A stretch of 47,792 nucleotides of DNA. Origin: a virus. The notes under the pieces were generated by a model. The model was given only the letters and a program-made list of their open reading frames with translations, was not told where the DNA came from and ran no database searches. The stretch's first letter is position 1. Each line of letters starts with the position of its first letter. The position numbers were made by a program, and so were the translations under genes. This document shows positions 22,855-31,795 of this stretch, piece after piece. The stretch spans positions 1-47,792 of the IMG/VR virus record IMGVR_UViG_3300030329_003466, one strand, 5' to 3'.

Positions 22855-23061
22855 TTATTTATTTGGTATCTTGTTTGCTATTCTTGGAAAGACTCCTCCA
22901 CAATCATAGCTATTATTGTCACAATCTGGACATTTGTTAGTTATATTCCAATAATCTCCACCCTGTCTGCACCATTCATCTATTTCTTCTGTTGTATAAA
23001 ACCAGTAACCTTGACCGTCGCATGTTGTACAGTCTTCTTGTTTATTTAGTTTCTTTTTCAC
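22855..23061 (-). CDS. DnaJ-type zinc-finger-like small protein (68 aa)
   Basis: The GTG start at 23061 follows AAAGGTAAAT. An ATG one base upstream, in another frame, is immediately followed by TGA and cannot be used. Cysteines C11 and C14 (CTTCDGQGYW) and C44 and C47 (CPDCDNN) form two half-sites of a CxxCxGxG-type zinc finger as found in DnaJ central domains. It is the promoter-proximal gene of the leftward unit and may be an early regulator or chaperone-like factor. Confidence 0.75.
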   Translation of the reverse strand: MKKKLNKQEDCTTCDGQGYWFYTTEEIDEWCRQGGDYWNITNKCPDCDNNSYDCGGVFPRIANKIPNK

Positions 23062-23850
23062 ATTTACCTTTCTTTTTTTATTTACATTGTGAACAGGTAG
23101 AGCTTCGCACTCAATAGCACTTATATAAAATAATTTATTTATATCTGCTCCTGTTCATATTAGAGGCGGTATCATGTCGCACCACTCAAGCAAATTTTAT
23201 AAATTCCATAGGTTTCTATAAAATTCCATGTATTTTTATGTAATGTTAATTCATACCTAAATAAAATATTTAGGCAGTACATCGGGGTTTGCACCCGTTA
23301 AGAAACTTGACACTTGACCACTTTTATAAGATTTAAAAAAAATCTTTTTATTATGTCGTCTACCAACCGCATAAATTAATAATATTAAATTTATTAGATT
23401 TAAATATTTTCTAATCTTTTTCATTTCACGACATATAATATTGATTGTATTATATTTTTAATGTTTCCGTACAGCTTATAGCTGGTCGCTCGGTGACTTT
23501 CGCCAGGCGGTCGGACTCTAAGCCCGCTATTATTTAGCACCTTTTACCCTCTCATTTTCTGAATTATTTCTAACCTATGGTTACCGTGCTTTATCAAGGC
23601 ACTAAAATAATTACTCCCTTGTTGTAGACTTTTATAAGTTAATAGCTATTTTTCAAGCTCTTCCACTCTAACGGGTAGCACTCTAAATTGCTACTAGTTT
23701 TTATACTCCAAACTTTATGCCGTCGCCTTTATTTTTTCATTGTCTCAGAAATGATAATCAATTAAAAAATTATGTTCTACTGTTTTAATTCGCAGTATTG
23801 AATAGGTTATTATTATTATTTCTATCTTAACCTGTAACTAATATAATAAA
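23062..23850. ncRNA. Long structured non-coding region, left part
   Basis: No convincing gene lies in these 790 bases. Stems visible by eye are GAACAGG/CCTGTTC (23091-23156), CCTAAAT/ATTTAGG (23256-23274), CGGG/CCCG (23283-23297), AAGATTT/AAATCTT plus a T run (23328-23349), TATGTCGT/ACGACATA (23352-23435), CAGCT/AGCTG (23472-23484), GGTG/CGCC (23492-23504, G:U only on the plus strand), GCGG/CCGC (23507-23527) and GTAGCA/TGCTAC (23675-23694). The GC-rich islands stand out from AT-rich flanks. A large RNA, several small RNAs, or an early leader are possible. The promoter for the leftward unit must lie here but I cannot fix it. Confidence 0.45.
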
Positions 23851-23860
23851 TTATAATAAC

Positions 23861-24249
23861 ATAAGTCAAGTATTATTTTTAATTATCTTTATTTATAGAC
23901 GAGAAAAAAATTTGTTTCTCTATAAAATACATCTATAAAAAATGATATTATATTATATCAATTATAAATATAATATAATCATTTAACATTAATAAAACAA
24001 GGAATAAAAAAAATATATATATATAATACATACAATAGTCAAATAAAGCTCAAAACATAGCCAAACAAGCAATATTATTATTACTAGTATGTCAATACCT
24101 AGATTTAATATATATAATTCTCATAAGGAGAAAATAAAAATAATTTAAAATAATTAAAATAATACTTGCATATTAAAAATAATGTTTGTAAGTTATAACA
24201 GGTTGAGATAGTAATTAAATAATAAATAATAAAATAAGGAATTAAAAAA
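23861..24249. other. Extremely AT-rich segment with perfect inverted repeat; origin candidate
   Basis: This stretch is almost pure A/T with short TATA runs. A perfect 10-bp inverted repeat ATATTATATT/AATATAATAT spans 23945-23954 and 23967-23976, and GAGAAA/TTTCTC lies at 23901-23920. It sits between the divergent transcription units, a usual place for a phage replication origin or paired promoters. No initiator gene is recognisable, so the origin call is positional only. Confidence 0.3.
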
Positions 24250-24420
24250 ATGAAAAGATATATAAAAGTAACATATAAGACCCAAAGTAATAAAGAAACA
24301 AATAAAATTATTGAGTCATGGAATAAATATAAAGGTGACGGTTTATTAGATTTTGCTTGTAATTGGTATGTTAAGGAATTGATAAGATGGGAGCCGTGCG
24401 ACTATAAAAACGGGAAATAA
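24250..24420 (+). CDS. Small basic protein (56 aa) in the divergent region
   Basis: ATG 24250 is preceded by AAGGAATTAAAAAA, a good ribosome site. The protein reads MKRYIKVTYKTQ, then a helical stretch, then FACNWYVKELIRW near the end, rich in Lys, Asn, Trp and Tyr. It is the only likely gene in the 1.86-kb non-coding region and is isolated from the late unit by the structured region 24440-24810. The function is unknown. Position suggests an early regulatory product. Confidence 0.6.
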   Translation: MKRYIKVTYKTQSNKETNKIIESWNKYKGDGLLDFACNWYVKELIRWEPCDYKNGK

Positions 24421-24439
24421 TCGAAATTTTCAACCAAAA

Positions 24440-24810
24440 AGCAGACCCCTGCCGACCAAAAATCGGCGGTGGGCTTGCGATAATAAACAGTCACACCCAT
24501 TCTGATATTATTTTTTGAAATTTAGGATTTAGGAAAGTATTAGTTACTTATTAGTTAACTATTGATTGCTTATTTGGTGGGTGTTTAGGATAGAGAAGTC
24601 CTACCCCTTAGATAACTAAGAGTGCTTCCTATCCTGGTATTGCTTATTCGGAGCCTGCGCAATTTGGATACCTAATAATTCATTGTTTATTAAGCGGGTA
24701 AGCTATGTTTAGTTCAATGAAACTCTAATACGGCCTTCTTACCTTCGACTGACCTGTGACTTTGTATACCCCTTGTTCTAGTCACTTAAAACACATGCGG
24801 AACAAGTTTT
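24440..24810 (+). ncRNA. Structured non-coding RNA candidate with H-type pseudoknot
   Basis: Several nested stems fit one strand. ACACCCA/TGGGTGT (24493-24499 with 24578-24584) is 7 bp. AGGATAG-a-GAAG/CTTCCTATCCT (24587-24598 with 24625-24635) encloses hairpin CTTAG-ATAA-CTAAG. GGTAT/ATACC is at 24636-24672 and GGTAAG/CTTACC at 24697-24743. In the last part GTGACT (24756-24761) pairs with AGTCAC (24780-24785), while CTTGTTC in its loop (24772-24778) pairs with GAACAAG (24800-24806), a textbook H-type pseudoknot. There is no coding potential. It lies directly upstream of the late genes. I cannot match it to a known family. Confidence 0.5.
24446..24473. terminator. GC-rich hairpin after the 56-aa gene
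   Basis: A hairpin with about seven continuous pairs (including one G:T) plus two more after a mismatch surrounds loop CCAAAAA, starting 25 bases after the stop codon. It is the most GC-rich hairpin in the region. No strong U-run follows on the plus strand, so it may be a rho-independent terminator lacking the tail, a processing site, or the first helix of the RNA described at 24440-24810. Confidence 0.4.
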
Positions 24811-24884
24811 CAACCAATATACACATGTGATGAGCTCTTAATATATATACAAATATACCTAATGTCCAAAATATTTTTTATTTT

Positions 24885-24918: not shown

Positions 24919-25662
24919 ATGGATTTTAAAACTATCAAAGGCGTTAATCACTATTTGTATGACAATCAAATTGAATTTAAAGCCTTTAAGCCAGATTCAT
25001 ACATAGTTGGTAATTGGCGTAAAGCGCAGGAAGGTGAATGGGCGTTTACAGATGACGACTATGTGTGTCAAATATTAAAAAAGGGGTTTATTTCTGGCAA
25101 ACCTTTTGTAAGGACAGTGTGTGGGACCTATTTTATTAAATCCAGTAAGAGGGAAATGCTTGGTGAGGAGGGTATTGCAGAGTGTATTTACTCTTTTGCA
25201 GGTACTTATGATGCTCAAAGGCAGTATTCTAGGAATAAAATGAATGGAAAAGAGTTCATGTTTGCTCAGTATGTAGCATCTGGCATGGAAGTTGTAGCAG
25301 CTTTTAAGAAGGCATACCCTTCTGCAAAGAGTGAAAGTTATATTAAGGCTAAATCACAGCAAATTTTAAAAAAAGAGAAGGTTCAACAAATGGTAAAAGA
25401 AGAAATTAAGAAAATCTTAGAGGATGAGGGAGTAACTCCTGAGTGGCTTATAGGAAAATATAAAGATATTGCTACTTTAGCTGAACGTGATGGAGATAAA
25501 TTACGCTCTTTAGAGTCTTTAGCTAAAATATCAGGCTTATTTGACACTGAAAAGAAACAAGAGCAGCTTACGGTTTGGGCTGGATTTAGCCCTGAGCAAA
25601 TGGAGGCTATTAAAGATGGAGAAAAAACGAAACTTATTGCACACGCAGAAAAAGAAGGGTAA
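24919..25662 (+). CDS. Terminase small subunit-like protein
   Basis: Residues about 110-210 have the terminase-2 small-subunit pattern: 'GKEFMFAQYVASGMEVVAAF', a helix-turn-helix-like 'KKAYPSAKSES', then 'LKKEKVQQMVKEEI' and a long helical region. This domain recognises phage DNA for packaging and precedes the large terminase. An extra 95-residue N-terminal domain contains a W..A..GEWAFTDDDYV segment and a VRTVCGTY segment of unknown role. The length, 247 residues, is longer than typical because of that domain. No Shine-Dalgarno site precedes the start. Confidence 0.75.
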   Translation: MDFKTIKGVNHYLYDNQIEFKAFKPDSYIVGNWRKAQEGEWAFTDDDYVCQILKKGFISGKPFVRTVCGTYFIKSSKREMLGEEGIAECIYSFAGTYDAQRQYSRNKMNGKEFMFAQYVASGMEVVAAFKKAYPSAKSESYIKAKSQQILKKEKVQQMVKEEIKKILEDEGVTPEWLIGKYKDIATLAERDGDKLRSLESLAKISGLFDTEKKQEQLTVWAGFSPEQMEAIKDGEKTKLIAHAEKEG

Positions 25663-25855: not shown

Positions 25856-26260
25856 ATGAAGTTAAAAGAAAGAATTAAAAAACATGAAGGATATGTAGGG
25901 ATGGTTTACAAGGATAGCTTAGGAATAGATACTATTGGCTATGGTTTTGCAATTAAAGACCTAGAATTAGATGAAGATATATGTGATGAAATATTAGCTA
26001 GAAAGCTAAAAGATTTAGATGTTAGAATAAAAAATAAATTTTCTTGGTTCTCATATATGCCGCCTCAAATTAAAGATGTTATTATGGAAATGTGTTATCA
26101 GTTGGGTGTCGGAGGGTTCTCAAAATTTAGAAAAACTATTGCTTTTTTGCAGGACAAGAAATGGGCAGAAGCTTCAGAAGAAATGCTTGATAGTTTATGG
26201 GCAAAACAAACTCCTAACCGAGCTAAATCATTAAGCGATATTGTTAAAGGGGTAGAATAA
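25856..26260 (+). CDS. T4-type lysozyme (GH24 endolysin)
   Basis: This 134-residue protein has catalytic residues at the same numbers as T4 lysozyme: E11 (KKHEGYVGMVYKD), D20 and T26 (DTIGYGF). The C-terminal WAKQTPNRAKSLSDI block matches the conserved QTPNRA region. It cleaves the peptidoglycan glycan backbone for host lysis or as a virion enzyme. It has no signal peptide, so it needs a holin, for which candidates occur at 37816, 39833 and 40134. Its location in the packaging cluster rather than beside the holins is unusual. The stop overlaps the next ATG (TAATG). Confidence 0.93.
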   Translation: MKLKERIKKHEGYVGMVYKDSLGIDTIGYGFAIKDLELDEDICDEILARKLKDLDVRIKNKFSWFSYMPPQIKDVIMEMCYQLGVGGFSKFRKTIAFLQDKKWAEASEEMLDSLWAKQTPNRAKSLSDIVKGVE

Positions 26261-28155
26261 TGATTATATATAAGTATGATGAAGATACAGGGCAGGTTGT
26301 TGCAGAAGATGTTGATGAAAAAGCAACTGTTAATATACCGTTTGCTGGAAGTTTTAATTATAAACATGGACAAAAAGGAGTGACTAAAACTCCTTCAAGT
26401 TCTCAAGCACCTACATGGAATTTTAATAATCCTTTGCAGAACTGGAATTTTCCTGTATTTAACAAAGCTAAACAGGTTGCAAAAGATTGGGACTTTCCTT
26501 TATTAAATATGTTAAAAAATTTAGCCCCTAAAAAAGAACCAAATAGTGTTGTAAATCAAACTAAAAAAGCTGTTCCCCCTTCTTCAGCACTAGGTTTGGC
26601 TGGCATTAAAGATGTTAATGGAGACGGGGTAGTCAATGTTCTTGATATTTTAGCTCAAAGCCAAGCTCCACAAGTTCAAGGACCGCCTGTTGCACCATCC
26701 ACAACCCCTCCTTCTTTACAAGGCTTAGGAGATATAAATGGAGATGGCGTTGTTAATGTTCTTGATGCAATATTATCTAATCAAGTCCAGGGTCCACCTG
26801 TTGCCCCGCCTGTTGCAACTGACCCAAATGATGAAGACTGGACTGGCTCAGACTTTCCACATATGGCTGACCCATTAAATGTTGGTTCTGTTCAAAGTGA
26901 GCCACAAACCTCAGAGGATTGGACTGGTTCGGATTTCCCACATATAGCTGACCCAGTTTATAGTCAATCGCCTGAAGTTGTACAAGCACCTGAACAACAA
27001 CAATATAATATTACTGGAGGTCTTGGGGAGGTTAATTTTGGAGTTTCGTATGAGATTGAGATTGATGGAGAAATGAAGTTATTTAACTGGGGAGAAGGCC
27101 CTATGGCTACTGGACAAATGTCTTCTAAAGATGTTTATAATATGGTGAATCAAACTCCAGAATCTACAGAATTACAAGACTCTCTTCTTACTAGTCCGCT
27201 TTTTGGTCTTACTCCTAAAAAAAAAGATGAATTATTAAATCTAGATGAACCTCAACAAGTAGACAGTACTGATTACGGTCTATTTCAGATAAATGATTAC
27301 TGGCATGGCGAAGAAGCTCAAGATTCTATATGGAATAAATATGTTCATCCAAAAGATATGTCTCCAATAGAAAATATCGAGTATGCTAAAAAATTATATG
27401 ATAGAGAAGGTTGGGATGTTTGGTCATCTTATAAAAACAATTCTTATAAGCAATTTTTAGATTGGTCAGATGAAGATTATAAAAAATCTGGAGTATCACC
27501 TATGGATTTAACAAGGATTGATATGATGTTTCCTGACCCAGAAGAAAATAAAATAGCAAAAGCTATTATGATGGCTGAATCTGGTGGTAACAGAAAAGCT
27601 ATAAATTATAACATGAGTCAAAAAGACTCTTCTTTAAAGTTTGAAAAAAGTAATAAAGATGGAATCAAAACAGTTTCTTGGGGTTATTATTTAGATGATA
27701 ATGATAAAAAAATAAAGCATGGCTCTCATGAAAATTGGTATCAGGACGGAACTAAACGTATAGATGGTCAATGGGAAGACGGTAATAGAGTAGGTTCTTG
27801 GAGAGAATACGACAAAAATGGAAACTTAAAAAAAGTAACTGAGTATGACGATAAAGGTAATGAAAAGAACGTAACTCATTATAACCCAGATGGTTCTATA
27901 AGAGATTTAGAAAAAGAAATAGCAGATAGGGAATGGAAAAATAGAGAAAACCTCATGGAGACAGGTGGTATGGGTGGTGGTATAAGAATTGATTTAGCCA
28001 AACAGTCTGATGAAGAATTAACTAAATTATTGGATGATATTCAAAGGGCTGAAGAAGTGGGTGGCTTGAGCGGCATGGCTAGGAATTCTTTCATTAAGCA
28101 ATATCAAAATGAAATTCAAATTAGAAAAGATGCTGGTAGGTGGACAGGCAAATAA
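26260..28155 (+). CDS. Mosaic protein: dockerin pair, permuted lysozyme-like domain, MORN-like repeats (631 aa)
   Basis: Domains in order: Pro/Asn-rich leader; two dockerin-type calcium loops, DVNGDGVVNVLD at 118-129 and DINGDGVVNVLD at 158-169; two copies of DWTGSDFPH(M/I)ADP near 193 and 220; and a 'LGEVNFGVSYEI..WGEGP.A' unit near 255-285 also present at 40301-40996. A lysozyme C-terminal half follows (STDYGLFQINDYWHG at 336-350, then 'IEYAKKLYDREGWDVWSSY' near 373-391). Next comes the normally N-terminal catalytic helix IAKAIMMAESGGNRKAINYN (432-451, E440), then YwqK/MORN-like 'HG..WY.DG' repeats about 465-550. It is likely a virion-associated cell-wall enzyme or adaptor. The start overlaps the lysozyme stop. 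Confidence 0.8.
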   Translation: MIIYKYDEDTGQVVAEDVDEKATVNIPFAGSFNYKHGQKGVTKTPSSSQAPTWNFNNPLQNWNFPVFNKAKQVAKDWDFPLLNMLKNLAPKKEPNSVVNQTKKAVPPSSALGLAGIKDVNGDGVVNVLDILAQSQAPQVQGPPVAPSTTPPSLQGLGDINGDGVVNVLDAILSNQVQGPPVAPPVATDPNDEDWTGSDFPHMADPLNVGSVQSEPQTSEDWTGSDFPHIADPVYSQSPEVVQAPEQQQYNITGGLGEVNFGVSYEIEIDGEMKLFNWGEGPMATGQMSSKDVYNMVNQTPESTELQDSLLTSPLFGLTPKKKDELLNLDEPQQVDSTDYGLFQINDYWHGEEAQDSIWNKYVHPKDMSPIENIEYAKKLYDREGWDVWSSYKNNSYKQFLDWSDEDYKKSGVSPMDLTRIDMMFPDPEENKIAKAIMMAESGGNRKAINYNMSQKDSSLKFEKSNKDGIKTVSWGYYLDDNDKKIKHGSHENWYQDGTKRIDGQWEDGNRVGSWREYDKNGNLKKVTEYDDKGNEKNVTHYNPDGSIRDLEKEIADREWKNRENLMETGGMGGGIRIDLAKQSDEELTKLLDDIQRAEEVGGLSGMARNSFIKQYQNEIQIRKDAGRWTGK

Positions 28156-28158
28156 TTA

Positions 28159-29724
28159 ATGGCTAACCTTAACCTTAATGGCAATGTTTCTAAGAATGAA
28201 AAAATTTTACACCATGCCTATAATGATTTGATAGCTTTTGGGAAGCTATTTTCCCCTCAAGATTTTTTGGCGTCTGCAACGCCCCCATTCCATGTGGAAG
28301 TGGGAAAAAAACTTTTAGCTAAAGACGTACAACAATTAGCTTTAGTTCTGCCAAGAGACCATGCAAAGTCTACTATGGCTGCTACCGCAATACTTCATCG
28401 TATCTTATTTGCCACAAAACAAGACCCTGAGTTTATATGTTGGGTTGGTGAAGCTCAAGACCAAGCAACTGATAATGTAGCGTGGCTACAAAATCATATA
28501 TATGATAATCCAGCAATACACTATTATTTTGGTGATTTAGAAGGTGACAAATGGACTAAGACTGAGTTTACTACTAAGAATGGTTGCAGAATGATTGCAA
28601 AAGGTGCTTCACAAAGATTGCGTGGAAAGAAGCAATTGTCTACTAGATATACAGGAATTGTTCTTGACGATTTTGAATCAGAGCTTAATACTAAGACTCC
28701 TGATTCTAGACAAAATATAAAAGATTGGGTTACAGCTGCTGTATACCCTGCTATCGATTTTGATAAAAGAGGGTTCTTATGGTGTAATGGAACTATTGTT
28801 CATTATGACAGTTTTTTGAATAATATTGTTAGAAGTCATCAGGAAGCAGAAAAAACTGGAGAAGATTATTCATGGGATGTTCTAACTTATAAAGCTATCT
28901 TAGATAATGGAGAGCCTTTATGGCCTAGTCGTTGGCCTTTAACAAAATTAGAAGAAAGAAAACAATTTTATATTGATTCAGGAGTTGCGGGCAAATTCTA
29001 TCAAGAGTTTATGAATCAAGCGAAGTCACCAGAGGACCAAATATTTCAAGAAGAGGATATTAATGATAACTATTATAAAGGAAAAATTAAATTTGATAAT
29101 GAGGCTGACTCATGGTTTTTGGAGTTGGATGATGGGACAAGACCTTATGTCAACATTTATATTGGTGTTGACCCTGCCTCTACACTTAGTTCTAGGGCTG
29201 ATTATAGTGTCATTATGGTTATTGGTGTTACCGCTGATAACGATTATTACATTCTTGAGTATTGGAGAAAAAGAGTATTACCTATGGAGTGTGCCGATGA
29301 GATATTTAAAATCGCTAAACGATACTCGCCAATTAGAAGAATAAATATTGAAACTATAGCATATCAAGAAATGCTTAGAGATTATATTATGAAAAGGTCT
29401 AAAAAGGAAGGATTGTTTCTTCCTGGTATTCACAAAGGGATAAAGAATTATGGAAATCAGAAAAAGAAAGACAGATTGTTTGAAGGTCTTCAACCTATGT
29501 TTAAAGCTGGAGCTGTTCATTTAAAAAAGAATATGCATGAGTTTATTGGTGAATTACTTGATTTTCCAAAAGGTTCTCATGATGATTGTATTGATGCTTT
29601 TTGGTTAGCTACTCAATTTGCAAAAGGAAATCCTAGTGCAGGTAAGTCTAAAAAAGAAAAGGGGAGAGATGGGTGGTTTAAAAGAAAAAAGAGGTATAAT
29701 TGGATTACAGGAGCTAGAATATAA
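28159..29724 (+). CDS. terL: Terminase large subunit
   Basis: Walker A-like LPRDHAKST (64-72), Walker B IVLDDFE (167-173) and the RNase-H-type nuclease acids D338 (GVDPAST), E398 (NIETIAY) and D479 within HDDCIDA (D475-D479) are all present in 521 residues. The protein is therefore a complete ATPase-nuclease packaging motor. The RDHAKST P-loop form is seen in several podoviral terminases. It translocates DNA through the portal encoded by the next gene. A 43-base AT-rich gap separates the two. Confidence 0.95.
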   Translation: MANLNLNGNVSKNEKILHHAYNDLIAFGKLFSPQDFLASATPPFHVEVGKKLLAKDVQQLALVLPRDHAKSTMAATAILHRILFATKQDPEFICWVGEAQDQATDNVAWLQNHIYDNPAIHYYFGDLEGDKWTKTEFTTKNGCRMIAKGASQRLRGKKQLSTRYTGIVLDDFESELNTKTPDSRQNIKDWVTAAVYPAIDFDKRGFLWCNGTIVHYDSFLNNIVRSHQEAEKTGEDYSWDVLTYKAILDNGEPLWPSRWPLTKLEERKQFYIDSGVAGKFYQEFMNQAKSPEDQIFQEEDINDNYYKGKIKFDNEADSWFLELDDGTRPYVNIYIGVDPASTLSSRADYSVIMVIGVTADNDYYILEYWRKRVLPMECADEIFKIAKRYSPIRRINIETIAYQEMLRDYIMKRSKKEGLFLPGIHKGIKNYGNQKKKDRLFEGLQPMFKAGAVHLKKNMHEFIGELLDFPKGSHDDCIDAFWLATQFAKGNPSAGKSKKEKGRDGWFKRKKRYNWITGARI

Positions 29725-29767: not shown

Positions 29768-31795
29768 ATGATAAAAGAAGATAAAAGAGCAAAACAGGTA
29801 AAAGATTATTTTAGGCGTTGGTCAGATGCTAAAAAAGATTGGGAAGCTGCAGCAAGAGAAGATATAGATTTTTATTTAGGAAATCATTTTTCTCCAGAAG
29901 AAGCAGATGTGTTAGAAGAAAGAAACCAATCTAATATGCCAATAGATAGATTGTATTCCGCTATTGAGCAGTTTAAAGCTATTACTACTTCTAAACCACC
30001 AAAGTTTTCCGCTGTTGGAAGAGAAGATTCTGATAATAAACTTGCTAATGTTTGGAAAGTTCTATTAGAATATATATGGGATATATCTGAAGGTGACGAA
30101 GTATTTAAGCAAGCTATACACGATTATGCTGTTACTGGTCTTGGATATTTTTATGCTTATATTGATAAAGAAGCTGACTATGGAAGAGGTGAAGTTAAGT
30201 TTGCGAATATAAATCCTTTTAGAGTTGCGGTTGACCCAAATTCTAGGCATCGCTATTTTGATGATGCTGCTGGTATAGCTGTATCAACTATATTAACCAA
30301 ATTTCAGCTGTTAGATTTATATCCTGAATTAAACCAACCATTTGAAGACAAAGAAAAGCTTTTAATAGATTTAATAGAAACTATGGATAATGACGAAGAT
30401 TATCCTACATCTACAAATAAATATACAACATCTTCTTTTACGCCAGATGTAGTAAAAGATTATGACACTTCTCAGCAATCAGAAAAATATAGATTAATAG
30501 AATTTTATAGCAAAGTAAAGGTTTCCTATTTTAGAGTAGCTAATGTTCAAACAGGGCAAACAGATGTGATAGATTCTGAAAGATTAGAAGTATTAATGTC
30601 TCAAAAAGAAATGATTGATGCTTTAGAAGCTGGGTATATTGATATTGCTGAGGTTAAGCAAACAAGAATAAAATTAACATGCGTATTAGGACAAATAGTA
30701 TTGTATGAAAAAATATTAGATACAGATATCTATCCTGTTGTTCCTGTTCCTAATATATGGACAAATACTCCATATCCTATGAGCGATGTAAGAAAAAATA
30801 AAGATTTTCAAAGGTTCCTCAATAAAACGGTCTCTCTCATTACCTCTCATGCTCAGGCTAGTGCTGGTCTCAAATTACTAATTCCGCAAGGCAGTGTTCA
30901 AGATGTTGAAGAATTAGAAAGAGACTGGGCTAATCCAAATGCTACCATTGAATATGACCCATCATTTGGGGAACCGCATTTTCCCTCACCTCAACCATTA
31001 GCAGGCTCAATAATGCAGTTGCCTCAACTTATTGAAAGATATATAGATTTAAATATGGGTATTTTTGAAATGATGCAAGGAAATACAGAGGTTGCTCCTA
31101 ACACATCTTCAGCAACTATGATGATGGAAGATTTTGGTCAACGTAGAAGCAAATCTAAATTAAGAGATATTGAGGGAAGCTTAAAGAGATTAGGGAAAGC
31201 TGTTTACAATTTATCTAAATCTCATTATACATTTGAAAAAACAATTAGAATTGTTCAGCCAAATAATGATATAACAGAATATGCTGTAAATAAAAGATTA
31301 TTTGATGATAAAACAGGTGCACTACAGACAATAGAAAATGATATTACTTCTGGTCAATTTGATATAAGAGTTATAGGTAACTCAACAATGCCTTCTAACA
31401 AATGGGGAGAATGGCAAATTTATATGGAAGCATATCAAGCTGGACTTATCGATAGAACTGAAGCATTAAAGAAAACAGAAATATTTGATAAGGAGGGCGT
31501 ATTGTCTAGAACTGATGAAGTAGAAAAATTACAAGGCATGATACAACAGTTACAAGAACAGGTTAAGAAAGTTTCTGGAGATTTACAAACAGCTCAAAGA
31601 GAAACTGTTCAGTCTAACCAAAAAACTGAAGTAGAGAAATTTAAAGGAAGATTAAAAGAAATTGAACTAGAAACTAAGACTGCTAACAAATTATCTGTTG
31701 GCAGACTTAAAGACACAGTAAACCTCGAAAGGGAGAAAATCAGAATGAATGGTGCATCAGCACCTGCTGGTGAAACTCCTGAAGAGACATTGTAA
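29768..31795 (+). CDS. Portal protein (P22-type)
   Basis: The 675-residue protein directly after terL starts with a basic helical region and a 'DFYLGNHF..EEA' segment. It has an N-terminal half of alternating strands and helices (for example NPFRVAVDPNSRHRYFDDA) typical of the P22-like portal family, and a C-terminal coiled coil (about residues 575-650) like the barrel extension. It would form the dodecameric vertex for DNA entry and exit. The family assignment is by pattern and by strict synteny with terminase and capsid genes. Confidence 0.88.
   Translation: MIKEDKRAKQVKDYFRRWSDAKKDWEAAAREDIDFYLGNHFSPEEADVLEERNQSNMPIDRLYSAIEQFKAITTSKPPKFSAVGREDSDNKLANVWKVLLEYIWDISEGDEVFKQAIHDYAVTGLGYFYAYIDKEADYGRGEVKFANINPFRVAVDPNSRHRYFDDAAGIAVSTILTKFQLLDLYPELNQPFEDKEKLLIDLIETMDNDEDYPTSTNKYTTSSFTPDVVKDYDTSQQSEKYRLIEFYSKVKVSYFRVANVQTGQTDVIDSERLEVLMSQKEMIDALEAGYIDIAEVKQTRIKLTCVLGQIVLYEKILDTDIYPVVPVPNIWTNTPYPMSDVRKNKDFQRFLNKTVSLITSHAQASAGLKLLIPQGSVQDVEELERDWANPNATIEYDPSFGEPHFPSPQPLAGSIMQLPQLIERYIDLNMGIFEMMQGNTEVAPNTSSATMMMEDFGQRRSKSKLRDIEGSLKRLGKAVYNLSKSHYTFEKTIRIVQPNNDITEYAVNKRLFDDKTGALQTIENDITSGQFDIRVIGNSTMPSNKWGEWQIYMEAYQAGLIDRTEALKKTEIFDKEGVLSRTDEVEKLQGMIQQLQEQVKKVSGDLQTAQRETVQSNQKTEVEKFKGRLKEIELETKTANKLSVGRLKDTVNLEREKIRMNGASAPAGETPEETL

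Follow-up and report, generated by a model that had tools for sequence, protein, structure and literature searches.

Comparison with two related phages indicates that a gene-free, stem-rich stretch in the genome of a marine-type phage encodes a conserved structured RNA on its minus strand, which we call RNA1. The genome, IMG/VR record IMGVR_UViG_3300030329_003466, comprises 47,792 bases and is referred to here as the window. RNA1 is hundreds of nucleotides long, conserved in structure and free of a conserved ORF, as is characteristic of large structured phage ncRNAs, and it is probably a previously undescribed RNA that represents a new family. A first-pass annotation of the same DNA had suggested a large phage RNA at this place, and this reading is supported by covarying structure, fixed ends, the lack of a conserved frame and the lack of an Rfam match. 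The most distinctive feature of RNA1, a tRNA-like domain at its 3′ end, had escaped that annotation.

The locus separates leftward replication genes from rightward packaging and structural genes (Table 1), and the sequence from 23061 to 24250 contains no plausible gene, in agreement with its earlier description as a gene-free region between divergent units. The sole ORF of at least 50 aa inside this stretch (23257-23424, minus strand, 55 aa) is not conserved. Of the region 23062-23850 that had been proposed as a candidate RNA, 23088-23833 forms the conserved unit, whereas 23850-24249 is an AT-rich spacer that holds divergent promoters and lies outside the RNA. ARAGORN found no tRNA gene in the window, and a search with TerL in bacterial genomes for a clue to the host gave no match. 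On the packaging side, the window also encodes a 631-aa lysozyme-like protein (26260-28155, plus strand) with a dockerin type I match, which is unusual for a phage.

Table 1. Predicted features of the RNA1 locus and its neighborhood, in positions of the window.
Feature	Position	Strand	Evidence or remarks
Replication side, left of the locus		minus	Cas4-like exonuclease, Erf, DnaB-like helicase, resolvase
Gene next downstream of RNA1	22855-23061	minus	68-aa protein, CxxC-type motifs; replaced by other genes in G001 and G002
RNA1, predicted structured non-coding RNA, ~746 nt	23088-23833	minus	homologues, consensus fold, no conserved ORF, no Rfam match
tRNA-like 3′ domain, 70 nt	23088-23157	minus	MFE fold of each sequence alone, covariation, model R1
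T-arm-like stem-loop	23098-23114	minus	directly abuts the acceptor 3′ strand (23090-23097), tRNA geometry
Central three-way junction	23562-23612	minus	closing stem and two hairpins (GUGC..GCAC; UAACC-AUA-GGUUA)
5′ terminal hairpin AGGUU...AACCU	23804-23833	minus	in 3/3 phages; U-A to U-G in G002
Predicted transcript start AGGTTAAGATAG	23822-23833	minus	identical in three phages
RNA1 promoter, -10 hexamer TATATT	23840-23845	minus	six bases from the predicted start
RNA1 promoter, -35 hexamer TTGACT	23864-23869	minus	10/12 match jointly with the -10, spacer 18
Divergent promoter TTGCAT-N17-TAAGTT and start AGGTTGAGATAG	24166-24211	plus	reads into ORF 24250-24420
RNA2, second predicted structured RNA	24562-24833	minus	just upstream of terS, beside RNA1
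RNA2 repeats, plus-strand form TTGCTTATT	24566-24574, 24640-24648	plus	flank the last RNA2 hairpin
RNA2 promoter, sigma70-type, TGGACA-17-TATATT	24868-24840	minus	
Packaging and structural side, right of the locus	terS 24919-25662; terL 28159-29724; portal 29768-31795		also lysozyme-like genes

Relatives were gathered with the terminase as bait, which gave 80 IMG/VR loci. Among these, the RNA1 region is kept only in G001 (IMGVR_UViG_3300030328_002602) and G002 (IMGVR_UViG_3300030329_004267), where its location and strand agree with those in the window. The TerL proteins of these two phages are 94-96% identical to that of the window, and the next locus reaches 81%. Beside this TerL, RNA1 has diverged fast, with pairwise identities of 63%, 55% and 55% among the three phages. 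Its boundaries are nevertheless common to all three, from the AGGTTAAGATAG start to the 70-nt terminal domain, and enclose 746 nt in the window, 681 nt in G002 and 670 nt in G001. In G001, the middle and the 3′ third ahead of the tRNA-like domain align poorly. In a blastn search, the region had no match among 50,697 phage records. When the 22-nt hairpin, the central hairpin and the 5′ start were used as exact patterns, IMG/VR yielded nothing beyond G001 and G002, and the pattern of the 3′ domain had no match in bacterial genomes. In G001, the tRNA-like end and the next gene are separated by a multi-branched element of about 95 nt (L095:2856-2948, plus strand; z -5.1), which the window lacks.

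The predicted 5′ end is accompanied by a promoter in the window, and G001 and G002 carry -35/-10-like hexamers at the same distance to the start motif. The predicted divergent plus-strand transcript begins at 24200 with AGGTTGAGATAG; its promoter has the same layout, and the first 12 nt, AGGTTRAGATAG, are (nearly) common to both divergent transcripts. In G002, a 41-nt sequence with TTGACTTT/TGTAACAGATTGTAA motifs additionally occurs in four direct copies ahead of RNA1 (L094:2310-2550), possibly tandem promoters, operators or iterons.

The stable stems noted in the first pass were confirmed by folding against shuffled controls, a check that had been set beforehand. The energy of the 799-nt region lies below the controls on both strands (z -4.4 for minus and -5.3 for plus; 0/20 shuffles as good on each), and in a sampled comparison one third (33%) of the 120-nt windows on each strand had z < -2 versus 6-8% in coding DNA. 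The consensus fold of the three-sequence alignment (z -7.7) beats all 40 column-shuffled alignments and keeps a z of -5.3 when the 3′ domain is left out. Covariation is present in the relatives as well. In the central junction, 10 of 20 pairs are doubly compensated across the three sequences, a result reached by 0/500 shuffles, and slid registers all fall far short. The 3′ domain shows compensatory double changes in 3 of 24 pairs, with 11/500 shuffles as good.

Since the reverse strand gives a similar consensus fold (z -7.2), energy cannot decide the strand of RNA1. We assign it to the minus strand based on the promoter directly upstream and on the conserved helices, which as listed by hand contain five G:U pairs on this strand and zero A:C. 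The same two observations contradict the earlier view that G:U pairing in a stem at 23492-23504 favors the plus strand. That stem and its GC-rich neighbors lie mostly in a stretch missing from G002, which makes the stem uninformative in this regard. A protein-coding explanation was rejected: similarity among the relatives runs across stops in all frames, and the conserved coding frame that the first-pass annotation had named as evidence against its own proposal was not found.

When the sequence of each of the three phages is folded by itself, the 3′ domain emerges as its MFE structure (z -3.2 to -3.8). According to the prediction, an 8-bp acceptor-like stem closes a junction of two arms. The first arm (4+7 bp, 8-nt loop) is anticodon-like and includes a 22-nt hairpin that is invariant (22/22 nt) and constitutes the most conserved part, and the second is a 5-bp T-arm with a 7-nt T-loop. 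The loop reads TTCAAAT or TTCGAAT in the relatives (TTCRAAT), which equals the tRNA T-loop consensus; the window has the diverged loop TGCGAAG, and one pair of its T-stem is broken by a U:U mismatch. The tRNA hallmark of an acceptor stacked on a 5-bp T-stem with a 7-nt TTCRANY loop is therefore exact in G001 and G002 and kept in geometry only in the window. With a covariance model of the domain (R1), the three phages reach 93-99 bits, and no other match in 48 related phage records exceeds 17 bits. The domain has no D-arm or D-loop and does not encode CCA, so that recognition by RNase P is not assured.

RNA1 is a member of no family tested and works at most like the GOLLD, ROOL or ICP1 RNAs. 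In the Rfam search (release 15), also set beforehand, the window gave no match and the region none at a permissive threshold; with the relatives included, gathering and permissive thresholds returned chance matches only. The GOLLD model (RF02032) hit 0 of 3 records at E ≤ 10, and cmscan likewise gave no match to it. The ROOL model (RF03087) also hit 0 of 3 at E ≤ 10, in a run in which control genomes gave nothing either. These results agree with the first-pass annotation, which had not been able to identify the sequence with GOLLD or ROOL. A four-arm tRNA cloverleaf was called neither by ARAGORN nor by RF00005. For tmRNA, there was no ARAGORN call and no model match, the only trace being a 6.3-bit local T-arm match in G002 (E 4.3). 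Readings of RNA1 and RNA2 as group I intron or tmRNA were judged by eye and found unsupported.

Judged from sequence, we give roughly even credence to RNA1 being a large structured trans-acting phage ncRNA that host RNase P/RNase Z free from the transcript of the leftward operon. The genes behind RNA1 differ across the three phages (zinc-ribbon-like, coiled-coil and an unrelated 68-aa protein), so RNA1 probably acts in trans and control of one gene is unlikely. The zinc-ribbon-like gene is also found elsewhere without RNA1; used as bait, it retrieved two relatives (L002 and L003), neither of which has RNA1 upstream. The minus strand shows no terminator-like site in the interval from RNA1 to the next gene; given the tRNA-like domain, we infer that RNA1 is cut off the mRNA by RNase P and perhaps RNase Z. 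RNA1 would then open the leftward operon from its minus-strand promoter with a fixed 5′ end, and the polymerase would continue through it to transcribe the replication genes. The stacked acceptor and T-arm at 23088-23157 would serve as the recognition and cutting site for host RNase P (and RNase Z), and the cut would both provide RNA1 with a stable 3′ end and trim the mRNA. The tRNA-like shape may in this way allow host enzymes that trim tRNAs to size RNA1. Once freed, RNA1 could function in infected cells through its fold, which is how GOLLD, ROOL and the ICP1 RNA are presumed to work.

Its position at the 5′ end of an operon into which it reads could instead suggest that RNA1 is a cis-acting leader, such as an antiterminator of the put or nut type or a riboswitch-like element that controls the first gene. 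The 12 nt shared with the divergent transcript would be expected of an antitermination signal serving both operons, and in the window the 3′ domain lies 27 nt ahead of the start codon of the next gene. However, this distance exceeds 100 nt in G001 and G002, the first gene is a different one in 3/3 phages, and 746 nt with a terminal tRNA-like domain go far beyond the needs of known antiterminator RNAs. We therefore regard a leader as unlikely. Less probable still are several independent small RNAs or hairpins in place of one RNA. The poor alignment in G001 would agree with them, and a cut at the tRNA-like domain would give at least two pieces, but all three phages conserve the order of one promoter, one start and one end, and no terminator intervenes. 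Of the earlier alternative between a new family and several small RNAs, the former thus probably stands, while the latter has lost ground, since in three phages the unit of 670-746 nt is delimited by a single promoter and a single terminal domain.

It is improbable that the structure represents a DNA element or replication primer at an origin beside the AT-rich 23850-24196. GC content drops to 14-17% next to RNA1, the GC skew switches sign near 24100, and G002 has its four 41-nt repeats at the same place; however, divergent promoters alone also give skew and AT-richness, and the conserved helices use minus-strand G:U pairs, which DNA hairpins do not favor. Very improbable, despite the T-arm and acceptor geometry, is a decayed tRNA gene with chance stems upstream, as the upstream part is structurally conserved by itself (z -5.3, 10 compensatory pairs), the invariant 22/22 nt belong to a non-tRNA arm and decay should not yield compensatory changes.

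RNA2 is spread more widely than RNA1 and occurs in 22 of 81 loci, 15 of them non-redundant. A loop-loop pairing is complete (7/7) in all 15, as CUUGUUC/GAACAAG, CUUGUUG/CAAUAAG or CUUAUUG/CAAUAAG, several stems covary, and Rfam gave no match for this RNA. RNA2 also contains a pair of direct repeats (AAUAAGCAA in the window, for instance) at a distance of roughly 75-115 nt. The two copies of a phage are identical (0 mismatches), whereas copies from different phages show a mean of 2.4/6 mismatches, and the 11 repeat variants comprise 10 distinct cores; 0/20,000 shuffles were as good. In the window, TTGCTTATT is found only at the two RNA2 repeat sites. As candidate explanations, these co-varying repeats could bind a protein that evolves quickly, TerS for example, or pair with a common partner. 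Most of the related loci that were checked, those lacking RNA2 among them, carry a block 'TTTCAACC...CACCCATTCTGATATTATTTTTTGAA' ahead of terS (window ~24430-24515, plus strand), which is possibly a packaging (cos/pac) site. With two structured RNAs side by side, the region is useful for studying phage RNA biology.

RNA1 adds an apparently unrelated family to the large, ornate RNAs of phages. To our knowledge, no function is known for GOLLD, ROOL or the ICP1 RNA, although these are conserved or abundant. Like RNA1, GOLLD is phage-borne, about 800 nt long, ornate and non-coding. Its linker sometimes holds tRNAs (PMC12286853), whereas RNA1 has its tRNA-like part at the end, as a domain that lacks a D-arm, and no tRNA gene was found in the genome. 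A homo-oligomeric nanocage is a further hallmark of GOLLD. ROOL is likewise a large phage RNA of similar length, but its model does not match RNA1 and the window lacks tRNA genes. Vibrio phage ICP1 produces an abundant ncRNA of ~800 nt from a gene-free stretch of ~1 kb (PMC7567579). The ICP1 RNA resembles RNA1 in length, in its ORF-less minus-strand gap and in a phage without tRNAs; unlike the RNA1 locus, this gap ends in an apparently ordinary intrinsic terminator, and as the 3′ model has no match there, the ICP1 RNA was rejected as a relative. With tmRNA, RNA1 shares an acceptor and T-arm and the absence of a D-stem. tmRNA is matured by RNase P, and the 5′ half of its acceptor sits at the 5′ end of the RNA. 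In contrast, both acceptor halves of RNA1 lie within its last 70 nt, and no tag frame was identified.

MALAT1/mascRNA and menRNA are like RNA1 in that a long RNA ends in a tRNA-like structure which has an acceptor and a T-arm, a D-arm that is reduced or absent, and a third arm of greater length. mascRNA keeps the acceptor and the T stem-loop and shows that RNase P and Z tolerate a reduced D region and a long anticodon-equivalent stem (PMC11693755). The same structural study emphasizes two D-loop guanosines (PMC11693755); G001 and G002 have two unpaired Gs beside the T-arm, and one may speculate that these stand in for them. Bacterial RNase P has been reported to act on tmRNA, OLE RNA and phage regulatory RNAs, and RNase P on MALAT1 at the tRNA-like end (PMC4919922). 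MALAT1 is a human nuclear lncRNA without homology to RNA1, and for RNA1 the cleavage is a prediction. By analogy, we tentatively consider RNA1 a possible, if somewhat doubtful, bacterial counterpart of MALAT1/mascRNA, with a 3′ end made by host enzymes, in which the RNA or its tRNA mimic would act on the translation or RNA-processing machinery of the host. The tRNA-like domain predicts cleavage by bacterial RNase P and RNase Z. If this is true, long phage RNAs can borrow tRNA processing to mature and may imitate tRNA inside the cell.
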